Notes under the pieces: generated by a model
What the model was told of the DNA's origin: nothing
Seen by the model: only the letters and a program-made list of their open reading frames with translations
The model's database searches: none
Origin: Paenibacillus physcomitrellae
GTDB lineage: Bacteria > Bacillota > Bacilli > Paenibacillales > Paenibacillaceae
Assembly: GCF_002240225.1 (NCBI RefSeq)
Contig: NZ_CP022584.1
Span: 4,689,850 to 4,753,849 of the forward strand
DNA length: 64,000 nucleotides
Direction of reading: 5' to 3'
Shown: piece after piece, positions 16,282 through 63,819 of the stretch
Layout of the letters: the number at the start of each line of letters is the position of its first letter
Position numbering within the stretch: the stretch's first letter is position 1
Translations under genes and position numbers: made by a program

Positions 16282-16351
16282 TTTGACAGCTTCCGTTTCC
16301 AGGTGTTAGCATCTTTGACAGATAAGGAATTGGAGAAACGGAGGGATCATC

Positions 16352-57455: not shown

Positions 57456-57509
57456 CCATTATTTACTTTAGGCAAAGCGATGCAATTCGGAAATGGAGCG
57501 AACAACCGA

Positions 57510-58421
57510 GTGGAACTAAGACAACTGCAGTATTTTGTTAAAGTAGCAGGCAAGGAACACGTTACACAAGCGGCGGAGGAGCTGCACGTTGCTCAATCCG
57601 CAGTCAGCAGGCAGATTCATCAGCTTGAGAAAGAGCTGGGAGTAGAGCTGTTCAAACAGAAAGGCAGAAATTTGCAGCTGACAGCGGTCGGACAGCTGTT
57701 CTGCACCAGGGTCGAATCCATCCTTAAGGATCTGGACCGGGCCGTTGCTGAGGTTCATGAGTTTCTGGATCCGGAACAGGGGGAGATCAGGCTCGGGTTC
57801 CCGCACAGCCTTGGCGTTCATTTGCTGCCCGTGATCATTGCGGAATTCAAGAAACGGTATCCGAATGTCAAGTTCCGTTTCAAGCAAGGGATGTTTACCA
57901 CGCTGATCCGGGATGTGACGGAAGCCGAAGTGGACTTGGCTTTTATTTCTCCTTTCCCGGATCATCATGAACAGGTATCGGGGGATGTGGTGCTGACCGA
58001 GGAGCTGTTTGCGATCCTTCCTCCCGGTCATCCGCTGGCCGGTGAAAGCGAAATTACACTGCATCAATTGAAGGATGACAAGTTTATTTTATTCAGCAAA
58101 GGTTATTCGCTCCGGCCGATTGTGCTTCATGCCTGTCTGGAGGCGGGGTTTACGCCCAAAATTGCCTTTGAAGGCGAAGAGACGGATACGATCCGAGGTT
58201 TGGTGGCGGCAGGAATGGGCGTAAGTCTGCTTCCGGAGATGGCTTCTTACCATAACGGAAACCTGGCTCCAACCCGGGTGAAAATATCAGCTCCCAAAGT
58301 AACACGTACGATTGGCCTTATCTATCGATCCGATGACAAGCTTCCGCTTGTCGCTCAGTCATTCCGAACCTTCCTTCTGGAGCATTTCAACGTCAAGCCC
58401 TGTCCGGAAGCTGACAAATAA
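57510..58421 (+). CDS. LysR-family transcriptional regulator, GltC-like
   Basis: 303-aa LTTR. The winged HTH begins (M)ELRQLQYFVKVAGKEHVTQA, then LHVAQSAVSRQIHQLEKEL, which is very like Bacillus GltC, activator of glutamate synthase. The effector domain spans about 90-290. GTG at 57510; a GGAG lies 12 nt upstream and the family start agrees. No gltAB is nearby, so the target is not known. Follows the rhomboid gene by 54 nt on the same strand. Confidence 0.92.
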   Translation: MELRQLQYFVKVAGKEHVTQAAEELHVAQSAVSRQIHQLEKELGVELFKQKGRNLQLTAVGQLFCTRVESILKDLDRAVAEVHEFLDPEQGEIRLGFPHSLGVHLLPVIIAEFKKRYPNVKFRFKQGMFTTLIRDVTEAEVDLAFISPFPDHHEQVSGDVVLTEELFAILPPGHPLAGESEITLHQLKDDKFILFSKGYSLRPIVLHACLEAGFTPKIAFEGEETDTIRGLVAAGMGVSLLPEMASYHNGNLAPTRVKISAPKVTRTIGLIYRSDDKLPLVAQSFRTFLLEHFNVKPCPEADK

Positions 58422-59854: not shown

Positions 59855-59884
59855 TTGTCAAGTTACTAGGTAATTGATTATAAT
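59855..59884 (+). promoter_or_regulatory. Promoter of the amt operon
   Basis: TTGTCA (59855-59860), 18 nt, TATAAT (59879-59884); start near 59891. Confidence 0.7.
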
Positions 59885-59904
59885 CGCTTTAACATAAAAA
59901 AACA

Positions 59905-59921
59905 TGTAAAGAAACATGACA
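59905..59921 (+). promoter_or_regulatory. GlnR/TnrA box
   Basis: TGTAA-N7-TGACA exactly matches TGTNAN7TNACA. It lies about 14-30 nt after the expected start site, a position that fits repression. Confidence 0.75.
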
Positions 59922-59937
59922 TTAAGGAGAGGGTTAT

Positions 59938-61329
59938 ATGAGGAAGAAGTGGTTGTTAAGCTTGTTGACTTTCGGTTCACTATTTGCAGTTCCGGTCTCC
60001 GCGTTTGCTGCAGATGACGTAACTGCACCGGCAGTTGAAATCGGTGTGAACTCCTTGTTTGTATTTCTGGCTTTTGTGCTTGTCTTCTTTATGCAGGCTG
60101 GTTTCGCTCTACTTGAAGCTGGATCCGTACGTATGAAAAATGCCGGCCACGTAGCCGGTAAAACCGTTCTTACATTAGGGATAGCCGTTATCGCTTTCTG
60201 GGCCCTCGGTTTTGGATTCGGCTTCGGCAATGGCAACGGATTTTTTGGCTACGAGGGTTTCTTCTTTGGAGGAAACGCAGACACTCCTTCATTTGATGCA
60301 TTAACTGCAGCCGGAGTGCCGATGGTGATCATGTTTCTGTTTCAATTCTCTTTCGCGGCTGTTTCACTGGCGATCGCCTGCGGCGGTATGGCCGAACGCG
60401 CGAAGCTGAGTGTTTACATTATCTTCGGACTTTTGTTTATGATTATCATTTACCCAATCATCGCTCACTGGGTATGGGGCGGCGGATGGCTGGCCGAAAT
60501 GGGCATGCAGGACTATGCGGGCTCGGCAGTCGTTCACTTGACAGGTGCGACAGCGGCTCTGGTAGCAACCTTCCTGCTCAAACCGCGCCTTGGTAAATAC
60601 AATAAAGACGGTAAGCCTAACAGCATTCCTGGACACAACCAAGTGCTCTCCGTATTGGGTGTAATCATTTTGTGGTTCGGCTGGTTCGGTTTCAACCCGG
60701 GCAGTGGACTTTCCGCTATGAACGACGGATTTTTTGGCTATGTAGCCCTGACTACTAACCTGGCTGCTGCCGCAGGCGGCGTTGCCGCGCTGCTGATTTC
60801 CTGGGCGGTGTTTGGCAAAGCGGACATCCCTAGCATGCTGAACGGTGTATTGGCGGCGTTGGTTGCTATTACGGGTTCATGTGCATTCGTAGAACCGTGG
60901 GCGGCCATCGTAATCGGGGTTGTAGCAGGCGTGTTGACATTCTTTACAGCTCAATGGTTTGAAAAAGCAGGGCTGGATGATCCCGTTTACGCATTCTCCG
61001 TACACGGCATCGCCGGTATGTGGGGCGCTTTGTCCACCGGTTTCTTCGCAACAGGCGATCTTGCTGACACGGTTGGCGTAGGTCAAGCCGGTTTGTTCTA
61101 CGGCGGCGGCTTCCACCAGCTGGGTGTTCAAGCTTTGGGCATGGTCGGAACGTTCGTATTCGTCCTGGTGCTTTCCTTCATTATTCTGGGGATCATCAAG
61201 GCTGTTACAGGACTACGTGTCACTGAGGAAGAAGAGACTATGGGACTTGATATCAGTGAGCATGGCACTTATGGTTATCCGGAACAAATGGGTTTGCTTA
61301 ATAACTCCGGCAGAGATATTAGTAAATAA
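59938..61329 (+). CDS. amt: Ammonium transporter
   Basis: 463-aa Amt/Mep/Rh channel: an N-terminal signal peptide (1-24, cleaved after SAFA), 11 TM helices, pore His pair in AVVHLTGATA and SVHGIAGMWG. It imports ammonium. AAGGAGAGGG precedes the ATG. No glnK (PII) follows, unlike the common amt-glnK pair; instead, DUF294 and exonuclease genes follow at a 72-nt gap without a terminator. Confidence 0.96.
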   Translation: MRKKWLLSLLTFGSLFAVPVSAFAADDVTAPAVEIGVNSLFVFLAFVLVFFMQAGFALLEAGSVRMKNAGHVAGKTVLTLGIAVIAFWALGFGFGFGNGNGFFGYEGFFFGGNADTPSFDALTAAGVPMVIMFLFQFSFAAVSLAIACGGMAERAKLSVYIIFGLLFMIIIYPIIAHWVWGGGWLAEMGMQDYAGSAVVHLTGATAALVATFLLKPRLGKYNKDGKPNSIPGHNQVLSVLGVIILWFGWFGFNPGSGLSAMNDGFFGYVALTTNLAAAAGGVAALLISWAVFGKADIPSMLNGVLAALVAITGSCAFVEPWAAIVIGVVAGVLTFFTAQWFEKAGLDDPVYAFSVHGIAGMWGALSTGFFATGDLADTVGVGQAGLFYGGGFHQLGVQALGMVGTFVFVLVLSFIILGIIKAVTGLRVTEEEETMGLDISEHGTYGYPEQMGLLNNSGRDISK

Positions 61330-61401
61330 GGATGATCTGGTGCTCTAGCAATGTTGATCTGATTCCTTAAATATGATGGTTAGAGAAAGGAAGTGCCCCG
61401 T

Positions 61402-62478
61402 ATGAAAGAAGCTGCTTCGCCAACTATTGATTTATCAAGTATTCATTCTGCGGAGACTTCCAGCGAACTGCGTTTAGCCAGATGGAAAGAAGAGAACAAG
61501 CTGCTTCAGCTGTTCTCTTCGGTCCCCATCGAGGATTGGAACGAAAGCGTAAACCGGCTTCAGGATGAAGTGATGGTGCAAGCCATCTCGATCTGTGAGC
61601 GGGAATTAGCGGAGGCAGGTGCGGGAGTTCCTCCCGTCCCCTTCGCTTTTGTTCTGTTTGGCAGCGGTGGCCGCGAGGAACAAACGCCATGGAGTGACCA
61701 GGATAATGGTTTAATTTACGCCGATGGCGGAGGGGCCGCCGCCGATCAATATTTTGAACAATTTGGTCTGGTGTTGGCCAGAATTCTGGAGGAAACCGGC
61801 TACCCTCCCTGCAAAGGGAAGGTGATGGTATCCAATCCGATGTGGCGGTTGAGCTTATTCGGGTGGCATCAACAATTAGCGGACTGGAGAGAAGAACTCC
61901 GCTGGGAAGACGTGCGGTATCTAACGATTGCTTCCGATTTGCGTTGCATTGCCGGCGATCGTCAGCTGGCTGCTGAATGGCGCAGTGACTTTATGCAGCT
62001 GATGAGCAGTAATGAAGAGCTGGAGGCAGCTTTATTAGGAAATACGGTCAGGCATAAGGCTGCCTTAAATGTGTTGGGACAGGTCATCACGGAGCGTTTC
62101 GGCGAACACGCCGGCGAGTTTGACGTGAAATACGGGTTGTATATCCCGCTTGTTAACGGAATACGTTGTATAGCTTTATATTATGGGATCAACGAAACAT
62201 CAACGCAGGACCGGATCCTGAAGTTACATGAGCTGGAGGCCTTCCCGAGGCCATGGATCGATGCGCTGCGGAGAGCTTTCACGAAATCGCTGAAATTCAG
62301 GTCGCTTACTAATCGCTATACGGAAGACGGCGTCCTGCAAGGGGATTCTTACTTAACCCAAGAAACACTCAAGCAGAAGGATGTATCCAGAGAGCTGAGG
62401 GAAAGTTTGCATACGGTCCGCCAGCTGTACCGGATGCTTCAAAGGCAGCATCGTTTTGCGGAAAGGAGGCTTCCATGA
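61402..62478 (+). CDS. DUF294 nucleotidyltransferase-like protein (GlnD-like)
   Basis: 358 aa. The nucleotidyltransferase centre is FGSGGREEQTPWSDQDNG (GSxxRxE...DxD, as in the GlnD uridylyltransferase family), followed by the DUF294 C-terminal helical substrate-binding domain (about 200-350). There is no CBS or ACT domain. It could modify a protein or make a nucleotide signal. ATG at 61402 with AAAGGAAG 8 nt upstream; GTG 61393 has no space for an RBS. It overlaps the next gene by 4 nt (ATGA). Confidence 0.88.
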   Translation: MKEAASPTIDLSSIHSAETSSELRLARWKEENKLLQLFSSVPIEDWNESVNRLQDEVMVQAISICERELAEAGAGVPPVPFAFVLFGSGGREEQTPWSDQDNGLIYADGGGAAADQYFEQFGLVLARILEETGYPPCKGKVMVSNPMWRLSLFGWHQQLADWREELRWEDVRYLTIASDLRCIAGDRQLAAEWRSDFMQLMSSNEELEAALLGNTVRHKAALNVLGQVITERFGEHAGEFDVKYGLYIPLVNGIRCIALYYGINETSTQDRILKLHELEAFPRPWIDALRRAFTKSLKFRSLTNRYTEDGVLQGDSYLTQETLKQKDVSRELRESLHTVRQLYRMLQRQHRFAERRLP

Positions 62479-63209
62479 AAGAGCCGGAACAAACTCACGG
62501 TTTATGGAACGCCATTAAAAATAGAACTTTACCTTCTGCAATCGCGTCTAAATTCGGCACTGAAAGCGCCCAGCAGATTGCTTTTCTGCGGTCGCTGAAT
62601 AAAGGTCTTCGAAGACCTGAGACGCTTCATATTCAGCTTAAAGAATTAAAGACAGCTGTATTCGATTTGGAAACGACAGGGTTTCATCCCAAGCAAGGGG
62701 ATGAAATTCTGTCGTTTGGTGCCGTTAAAGTAGAAGGCGTTCAGGTTCAGCAGGATGAGACTCACCATGTGATCGCCAAAACCTCCAAACGGATTCCAGA
62801 AGAGATTGTGAACCTTACGGGTATTACCCAGGAAATGGCCGACCAGGCTCCGCCGCTGGTTGAAGCGCTGCACGGGTTTATGAGTTTTGTGGATGATCGG
62901 GTGTTAATCGCGCACTGCAGCGGCCATGACAAAGCTTTCTTAGACCTGGCCTTATGGAAAACATCAAAAAGCCATTTGGGGCACCGGGTACTGGATACGA
63001 TGATGATTGCTCAACGCTTGCATTCGGACAGCCATATGGTCAGTCTTGATGAGTGGCTGAATTGGTACGGCATTCCGATTACCCGCCGGCATCATGCTCT
63101 GGAAGATGCCAAAATGACGGCGTATCTCTGGACGGCGCTGGTGGATCAATTGGGGGAGAGAGCTGTATATACGCTTGGCGATCTCTACGTTTTTCTAAGC
63201 CATTCTTAA
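62475..63209 (+). CDS. DnaQ-like DEDDh 3'-5' exonuclease
   Basis: 244 aa. ExoI AVFDLETTGFHP (D, E), ExoII HCSGHDKAFLDL-type (Asp), ExoIII HHALEDAKMTAYL (H, D). An N-terminal 55-aa part precedes the nuclease domain. It is like the exonuclease epsilon subunit but is not fused to a polymerase. ATGA overlap with the DUF294 gene. Partner pairs of DUF294 and DnaQ-like proteins occur in other bacteria; their joint function is unproven. Confidence 0.9.
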   Translation: MKEPEQTHGLWNAIKNRTLPSAIASKFGTESAQQIAFLRSLNKGLRRPETLHIQLKELKTAVFDLETTGFHPKQGDEILSFGAVKVEGVQVQQDETHHVIAKTSKRIPEEIVNLTGITQEMADQAPPLVEALHGFMSFVDDRVLIAHCSGHDKAFLDLALWKTSKSHLGHRVLDTMMIAQRLHSDSHMVSLDEWLNWYGIPITRRHHALEDAKMTAYLWTALVDQLGERAVYTLGDLYVFLSHS

Positions 63210-63243: not shown

Positions 63244-63705
63244 CTAATTTGCGTGAAGCTTTATTAAAATATATCCTGCGTCTTCCCCTGATTGAACCCC
63301 GTACAGCGAGTGATTAGGGGGATTTTTGTGTTCAGTTGAAACAATCATATACACTTTGATCAGTTCTCCGAAGCTTTGCAGCTGTTTCAAGTCCTCCTGA
63401 GACGGCACGGGTGCGGAAACCGGATGACTGTGAACAATGCCTAACAGACGCGGGGACAAGCTGCTCGGGACCCAAACAGCTGGATCCAGTGAGAAGGCTC
63501 GTTCGGGTTGTGAGGAACGGTTGGCTGCGGGCCTAAATTCGGTGATCTGCCAGCTTTGGACGCTTCCAGCTGAGGGCTCGCCAAACAAAATTCCGCATCC
63601 TTCTAAAGGATGGCAGGCAGCCATATGCTGATGAATAGCCATTAGAATCTGTTCATTGAGCTCTATATTTATTTTCAATTGATGACCACTGCTTTCTGTT
63701 TTCAT
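63244..63705 (-). CDS. M67-family (JAMM/MPN+) metallopeptidase
   Basis: 153 aa. JAMM motif: Glu in HPLEGCGILFGE, then GIVHSHPVSAPVPSQED (HxH-x7-S-x2-D). Bacterial relatives (Mec+ type) cut the C-terminus of ThiS/MoaD-like sulfur carriers; no such partner is visible here. ATG at 63705 with GGAA 8 nt upstream; the frame extends to 63774 without an RBS. Confidence 0.85.
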   Translation of the reverse strand: MKTESSGHQLKINIELNEQILMAIHQHMAACHPLEGCGILFGEPSAGSVQSWQITEFRPAANRSSQPERAFSLDPAVWVPSSLSPRLLGIVHSHPVSAPVPSQEDLKQLQSFGELIKVYMIVSTEHKNPPNHSLYGVQSGEDAGYILIKLHAN

Positions 63706-63819
63706 CGATCTTTCCGATTCCTTTCCGGCTATTATGGGGGGGCGTGTGTAATGTTTCTTCTTACGGTTGGGCACAATAAGACATAAATCTTGGTAATCTT
63801 ACCGTAAAGGAACGATCGC

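Follow-up and report, generated by a model that had tools for sequence, protein, structure and literature searches.

How an ammonium transporter can be controlled when PII is missing is the question raised by a three-gene locus of Paenibacillus physcomitrellae. It lies in a 64,000-nucleotide (nt) stretch (assembly GCF_002240225.1, contig NZ_CP022584.1, positions 4,689,850-4,753,849), here called the window, whose own positions serve as coordinates, and comprises the genes for an ammonium transporter (amt), a DUF294-family nucleotidyltransferase (DUF294) and a DEDDh exonuclease (dnaQ), all on the plus strand at 59938-63209. Amt must close fast once ammonium is back, a task that textbooks assign to PII (GlnK). 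Since most sampled Paenibacillales genomes (129 of 151) and relatives of P. polymyxa, a nitrogen fixer, have no PII, gating of Amt and relay of its signal in these bacteria need another account. We propose, with a probability of roughly 0.4 for the reading as a whole (transferase activity, eraser role, target and sensing together), that GlnR represses this amt operon and that a two-enzyme nucleotidylation module, consisting of a transferase and a DEDDh-type eraser, takes the place of PII at the locus.

The locus and its promoter

The preliminary description of this DNA had read amt, DUF294 and the exonuclease gene as co-directional, with spacings of 72 and -4 nt, and the open reading frame (ORF) calls and Pfam matches bear this out; the second junction is an ATGA overlap. 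The features of the locus are as follows.

59855..59884 (+), sigma-A-type promoter TTGTCA-N18-TATAAT, 11/12 consensus positions; the same TTGTCA/TATAAT arrangement is present in relatives
59905..59921 (+), GlnR/TnrA box TGTAAAGAAACATGACA, exact match to TGTNAN7TNACA, between the -10 element and the amt start
59938..61329 (+), amt, ammonium transporter, 463 amino acids (aa); Pfam PF00909 (Ammonium_transp) 3e-114, NCBIfam TIGR00836 above cut-off; the single amt of the genome
61210..61290 (+), Amt cytoplasmic C-terminal signature GLRVTEEEETMGLDISEHGTYGYPEQM (GLD...H...YPE), with an invariant Tyr-Pro-Glu at 61276-61284
61402..62478 (+), DUF294-DUF294_C nucleotidyltransferase, 358 aa from ATG; Pfam DUF294 (PF03445) 5e-36 and DUF294_C (PF10335) 3e-22
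61660..61704 (+), catalytic motif GSGGREEQTPWSDQD (G-S-x10-D-x-D); G, S, D and D invariant in the alignment
61936..61938 (+), Asp182 (numbered from the GTG) of a DxR motif, an invariant column; candidate third metal-binding carboxylate
62475..63209 (+), DEDDh (DnaQ/PolC-type) exonuclease-domain protein, 244 aa; Pfam RNase_T (PF00929) 4e-29, NCBIfam PRK07740 above cut-off
62475..62650 (+), conserved N-terminal extension of the exonuclease (about 50 residues); W11, A36 and R39 invariant, predicted local distance difference test score (pLDDT) low

The DUF294 start was placed at the ATG at 61402, about 10 nt 3' of AGGAAG; the mechanical start, at 61393, is a GTG in the same frame (361 aa). A terminator or promoter between amt and DUF294 had been named as a sign against the linkage, and a site scan of the window, in which terminator-like and promoter-like sites were about as numerous as in shuffled sequence, found neither a plus-strand terminator-like site nor a good promoter in the 72-nt gap. 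An Rfam search found no element. The three genes are likely one transcription unit.

The GlnR/TnrA box that the preliminary description had placed in front of amt proved exact and conserved, with one correction: it stands 20 bases downstream of the -10 element rather than upstream of the promoter, and this position between promoter and start codon is, to judge from sequence, a repressing arrangement. Exact TGTNAN7TNACA matches numbered two in the window against 0.5 expected. The box at 59905-59921 is taken as real because an exact box is present in 100 of 107 homologous loci (1.1 in shuffles), nearly always 33-38 nt (about 34) before amt. GlnR of P. polymyxa WLY78 is bound to the amtB promoter when nitrogen is in excess and reduces expression of the gene (PMC9948412); one of the two GlnR sites there, ATGTAAAGAAACTTAACAT (PMC9948412), is identical in the promoters upstream of amt-DUF294 in P. 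ottowii and P. maysiensis. The other exact match in the window, at 16304-16320 (+), precedes a D-2-hydroxyacid dehydrogenase-like ORF by 31 nt and may be due to chance.

Two neighbouring genes frame the locus. A GltC-type LysR regulator gene (57480-58421, +; NCBIfam TransRegGltCGpos above cut-off) lies 1.5 kb 5' of amt, and a gene for a Prok-JAB domain protein (63244-63774, -) is convergent with dnaQ.

Conservation of the linkage and distribution of PII

The survey of amt neighbourhoods for DUF294 and DnaQ that the preliminary description had suggested was run, and the linkage is conserved far beyond the genus. Among 145 Paenibacillales DUF294 genes, 141 directly follow amt: 90 by listed coordinates, 50 of a further 54 loci that were fetched and read directly, and the one in the window. 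An exonuclease gene was present in all 112 fetched DUF294 loci, 108 of which have the full amt-DUF294-dnaQ order. Of the named relatives, Paenibacillus pinistramenti (81%) and P. caui (78%) are closest in DUF294. At four loci (L191, L196, L198 and L210) the neighbourhood is unchanged and DUF294-dnaQ stays, with amt gone from its place; the neighbourhood of the GltC-type regulator is also retained in these relatives. In four survey genomes with a displaced amt the GlnR box is kept, and both readable Amt tails contain the Tyr-Pro-Glu (YPE) sequence.

A sample of 200 Bacilli genomes was used for comparison at class level. Outside Paenibacillales, among the amt matches listed, the neighbour was DUF294 in 57 cases, PII in 35, both in 1 and neither in 45. 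In the same non-Paenibacillales part of the sample, 58 of 68 short DUF294 proteins (<550 aa) were encoded near amt, against none of 30 of the long form (about 640 aa); the amt-linked proteins lack an additional N-terminal stretch present in the long form, and no short DUF294 was found in amt-less genomes among those sampled. The long form is common elsewhere in the phylum, outside amt operons, and DUF294-dnaQ is a general pair, since a dnaQ sequence also adjoins the long form in 18 of 23 loci examined (in opposite orientation at L341). In one Bacilli family, a gene for an MgtC-family protein with an ACT domain stands between amt and DUF294 (L248, 5197-5886, and L250).

The P. physcomitrellae genome is a single contig, 99.99% complete, with one amt and one DUF294. 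The preliminary description had left PII to be sought elsewhere in this genome; no match to PF00543 was found anywhere on the contig, and controls matched in 13 of 14 genomes. Across the 151 Paenibacillales genomes, DUF294 was found in 145, amt in 149 and PII in 22 (21 over the cut-off). Replacement of PII throughout the genome held only in part, because 20 of the 21 PII-bearing Paenibacillales retain DUF294; in Bacilli PII and DUF294 are modestly anticorrelated at genome level (odds ratio 0.38, p 0.008, without correction for descent). Exclusion of PII and DUF294 thus holds at the amt locus, not strictly genome-wide, and the earlier view of DUF294 and an exonuclease standing in place of PII is retained for the locus and for this genome and given up as a strict rule for genomes.

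A more divergent DUF294-dnaQ pair occurs near an Amt of a different branch in two further groups (families G292/G177/G320 and G235), in which amt and DUF294-dnaQ are accompanied by an opposite-strand glutamine synthetase gene, either between them or beside them. G235 has two such pairs; in one compact nitrogen cluster (L246, 870-7499) two DUF294-dnaQ pairs with an opposite-strand glutamine synthetase gene between them are followed by amt. In a tree of tail-masked Amt sequences the four second-lineage Amts stood apart from the other 54 DUF294-linked Amts, and PII-linked Amts fell in both large branches. The constraint that all DUF294-linked Amts group together against PII-linked ones was rejected (approximately unbiased test, p 9e-6), so the DUF294-linked Amts are not one clade, and the module and the tail described below go together in two Amt lineages. 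By this phylogenetic evidence the linkage of DUF294 to amt exists in at least two separate Amt lineages, which is new here.

The Amt tail, the two enzymes and a proposed mechanism

The cytoplasmic tail of Amt differs according to its neighbour. YPE was present in all 148 DUF294-linked Amts read (108/108 at order level, 40/40 at class level) and in none of 19 PII-linked Amts (0/14 at class level, 0/5 at order level); Fisher's test of tail against neighbour, which ignores descent, gave p 3e-13. This partition among the Amts read is new here. The preliminary description had suggested that DUF294 could modify the transporter, an idea that the conserved tail makes more specific.

DUF294 had also been described as GlnD-like. 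Literal likeness to GlnD was rejected, as the predicted fold is nearest to GlnE and DrrA: the AlphaFold2 model (pLDDT 91) matched the GlnE N-domain (1v4a, template modelling score 0.70), the GlnE C-domain (3k7d) and DrrA (6yx5), followed by weak matches to aminoglycoside transferases, and the best 50 fold matches held no CD-NTase or CCA-adding enzyme. GlnE and DrrA/SidM attach adenosine monophosphate (AMP) to hydroxyl groups of proteins, forming a phosphodiester bond (PMC12409994), and the modelled match of DUF294 to these protein-AMP transferases is new here. The GS-x10-DxD motif is intact in 72 of 72 homologues (32/32, and a further 40/40 at class level), and motif and model together point to a polymerase-beta transferase fold with the G-S-x(9-10)-D-x-D signature of GlnE and GlnD. 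Neither the two-transferase layout of GlnE nor the transferase-HD-ACT layout of GlnD, with its family profile, was found in the DUF294 protein. By analogy with polymerase-beta-type enzymes, Asp182 is a candidate for the third carboxylate. Pfam matches in the 361 aa were limited to DUF294 and DUF294_C, with no CBS or cNMP domain; searches gave no NCBIfam match and no match to the GlnE profile, and a sequence search of solved structures returned none that was convincing. DUF294_C has been classed with the helical domains of the HEPN superfamily, as one that lacks conserved RNase residues (PMC3710099).

In the exonuclease the DEDDh catalytic residues D64, E66, D152, H206 and D211 are invariant across Paenibacillales, and the fold resembles those of the PolC, DnaQ and DinG exonucleases. 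The conserved N-terminal extension is a possible docking segment.

These observations can be joined in the following scheme, in which the enzymatic and sensing steps are what we infer. Under nitrogen excess, GlnR on the downstream box would block the promoter; under nitrogen limitation, Amt, the transferase and the exonuclease would be made together. DUF294, which is GlnE/DrrA-like and lacks the CBS sensor part found in longer members of the family, would respond to the state of Amt, to which it would be coupled through the GLD...H...YPE tail, by attaching a nucleoside monophosphate (NMP) to a hydroxyl group of a protein. The DEDDh protein would hydrolyse the phosphodiester and release the NMP, as such enzymes do at a nucleic-acid 3' end; this eraser chemistry fits because DEDDh enzymes release an NMP from a phosphodiester. 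Amt would be either sensor or target, the likeliest target being Amt itself (the tail Tyr) or a partner docked on the tail. The most specific version, in which DUF294 reversibly nucleotidylates the YPE tyrosine and the DEDDh enzyme erases the mark, seems on its own quite unlikely; if true, an ammonium channel would be gated by direct covalent modification, with no PII involved, and the eraser fold would, as far as is known, be novel for protein nucleotidylation.

Several observations weigh against the two-enzyme nucleotidylation module. We know of no DEDDh enzyme that acts as an eraser of protein nucleotidylation. In several Bacilli amt-linked exonucleases outside Paenibacillales (L243-L282) the third DEDDh Asp is Glu (HxxHE), a substitution that might signify a substrate other than DNA. 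Of 26 Amts that have neither gene as neighbour, 12 also carry YPE, some of them in DUF294-less genomes, and the tail therefore does not need DUF294; two genomes with neither DUF294 nor PII (L082 and L098), natural losses, keep an amt with a YPE tail (YGYPEH). Most PII-linked Amts likewise have a Tyr at the same place (AY), and the association of tail with DUF294 comprises two phylogenetically independent contrasts, too few for significance. As proof of the target the YPE tail is thereby weakened: given shared descent, the two contrasts and YPE without DUF294, it is a hint of docking or modification and proves neither. The literature search found no biochemical evidence on any DUF294 protein, and deletion of a homologous pair in P. 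putida caused no growth defect on 20 mM acetate (PMC9927547).

Three other readings share parts of this evidence. If Amt is a sensor platform and the target is glutamine synthetase or GlnR, nucleotidylated by a tail-docked or released DUF294 and restored by the DEDDh enzyme, the resemblance of DUF294 to the two domains of the glutamine synthetase adenylyltransferase GlnE and the glutamine synthetase gene lying between or beside amt and DUF294-dnaQ in the second Amt lineage would be natural; PII itself works as an Amt-docked or released regulator of other proteins, and the pair, which survives without an adjacent amt, can act in trans. We regard this reading as doubtful, as glnA lies outside the cluster in the window and in nearly all relatives. 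Bacillus-type glutamine synthetase is regulated by feedback and by GlnR/TnrA binding, and no adenylylation of it is known to us. That the pair instead works on nucleic acid or nucleotides, DUF294 making a nucleotide signal or extending RNA at its 3' end, with the product degraded or trimmed by the DEDDh enzyme, is unlikely: such DEDDh enzymes are 3'-5' exonucleases, the polymerase-beta fold includes RNA-tailing enzymes and signal synthases, and the pair is widespread with the long DUF294 outside amt operons, but GlnE and DrrA rank first in the fold search, with CD-NTases and CCA-adding enzymes absent from the best 50, and the Amt tail is left unexplained.

It is distinctly improbable that the pair is an ordinary nitrogen-starvation accessory (nucleotide or RNA salvage, for example) that shares the GlnR promoter and makes no contact with Amt. 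GlnR co-regulation would explain the operon, and the persistence of DUF294-dnaQ where amt has moved and the retention of amt without the pair at L082 and L098 also speak for this reading, but such an accessory would not be expected to nearly exclude PII at the locus, to be linked to two Amt lineages with the same tail, or to have its short DUF294 absent from amt-less sampled genomes. The proposed nucleotidylation module provides a concrete, testable candidate for Amt control, with its active sites and target tail named.

Comparison with known systems

The amt-DUF294-dnaQ linkage itself is not new. The same operon was noted in 2012 (PMC3412718, Table 1, footnote d) for Geobacillus, Anoxybacillus, Brevibacillus and Paenibacillus, with P. 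polymyxa E681 listed as having the operon and no glnK; function, fold, tail and exclusivity were not analysed there, and the literature searched contained no proposed function for it. In P. polymyxa WLY78 the gene co-transcribed with amtB was named glnK2 (PMC9948412). This gene is probably a DUF294 gene, because close relatives in the P. polymyxa group have no PII, which suggests that the glnK of the P. polymyxa literature is not PII.

Like amtB-glnK (nrgAB) of B. subtilis, the locus is a GlnR/TnrA-controlled operon of an Amt-family transporter and a signalling protein. It differs in that no PII gene lies beside amt or elsewhere in the genome, two enzymes being present instead, and in the Amt tail, which in nrgAB has AY followed by other residues and here YPE. 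With GlnE and DrrA/SidM, DUF294 shares the predicted whole-protein fold and the G-S-x10-D-x-D motif, but it has one transferase domain, about 11-15% identity to them, and linkage to amt and a DEDDh protein.

The closest parallel in gene content is the P. putida pair pp_0354/pp_0353 (PMC9927547), in which a CBS-domain DUF294 gene adjoins an RNase_T (DEDDh) gene. Pairs of this type have the long DUF294, whereas the protein here has about 360 aa and lacks the CBS/cNMP sensor domains. The statement in the preliminary description that such pairs occur elsewhere with acetate permease genes is correct, as the homologous pair of P. aeruginosa adjoins actP/yjcH (PMC9927547), and the fitness pattern of the P. 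putida exonuclease pp_0353 is reported to resemble that of actP-I at 5 mM acetate (PMC9927547); both observations support permease-linked DUF294-DnaQ pairs in general. The present locus, with DUF294-DUF294_C, a DEDDh gene and a permease side by side, opens a way to study this widespread, uncharacterised pair by means of a transporter that is easily assayed.

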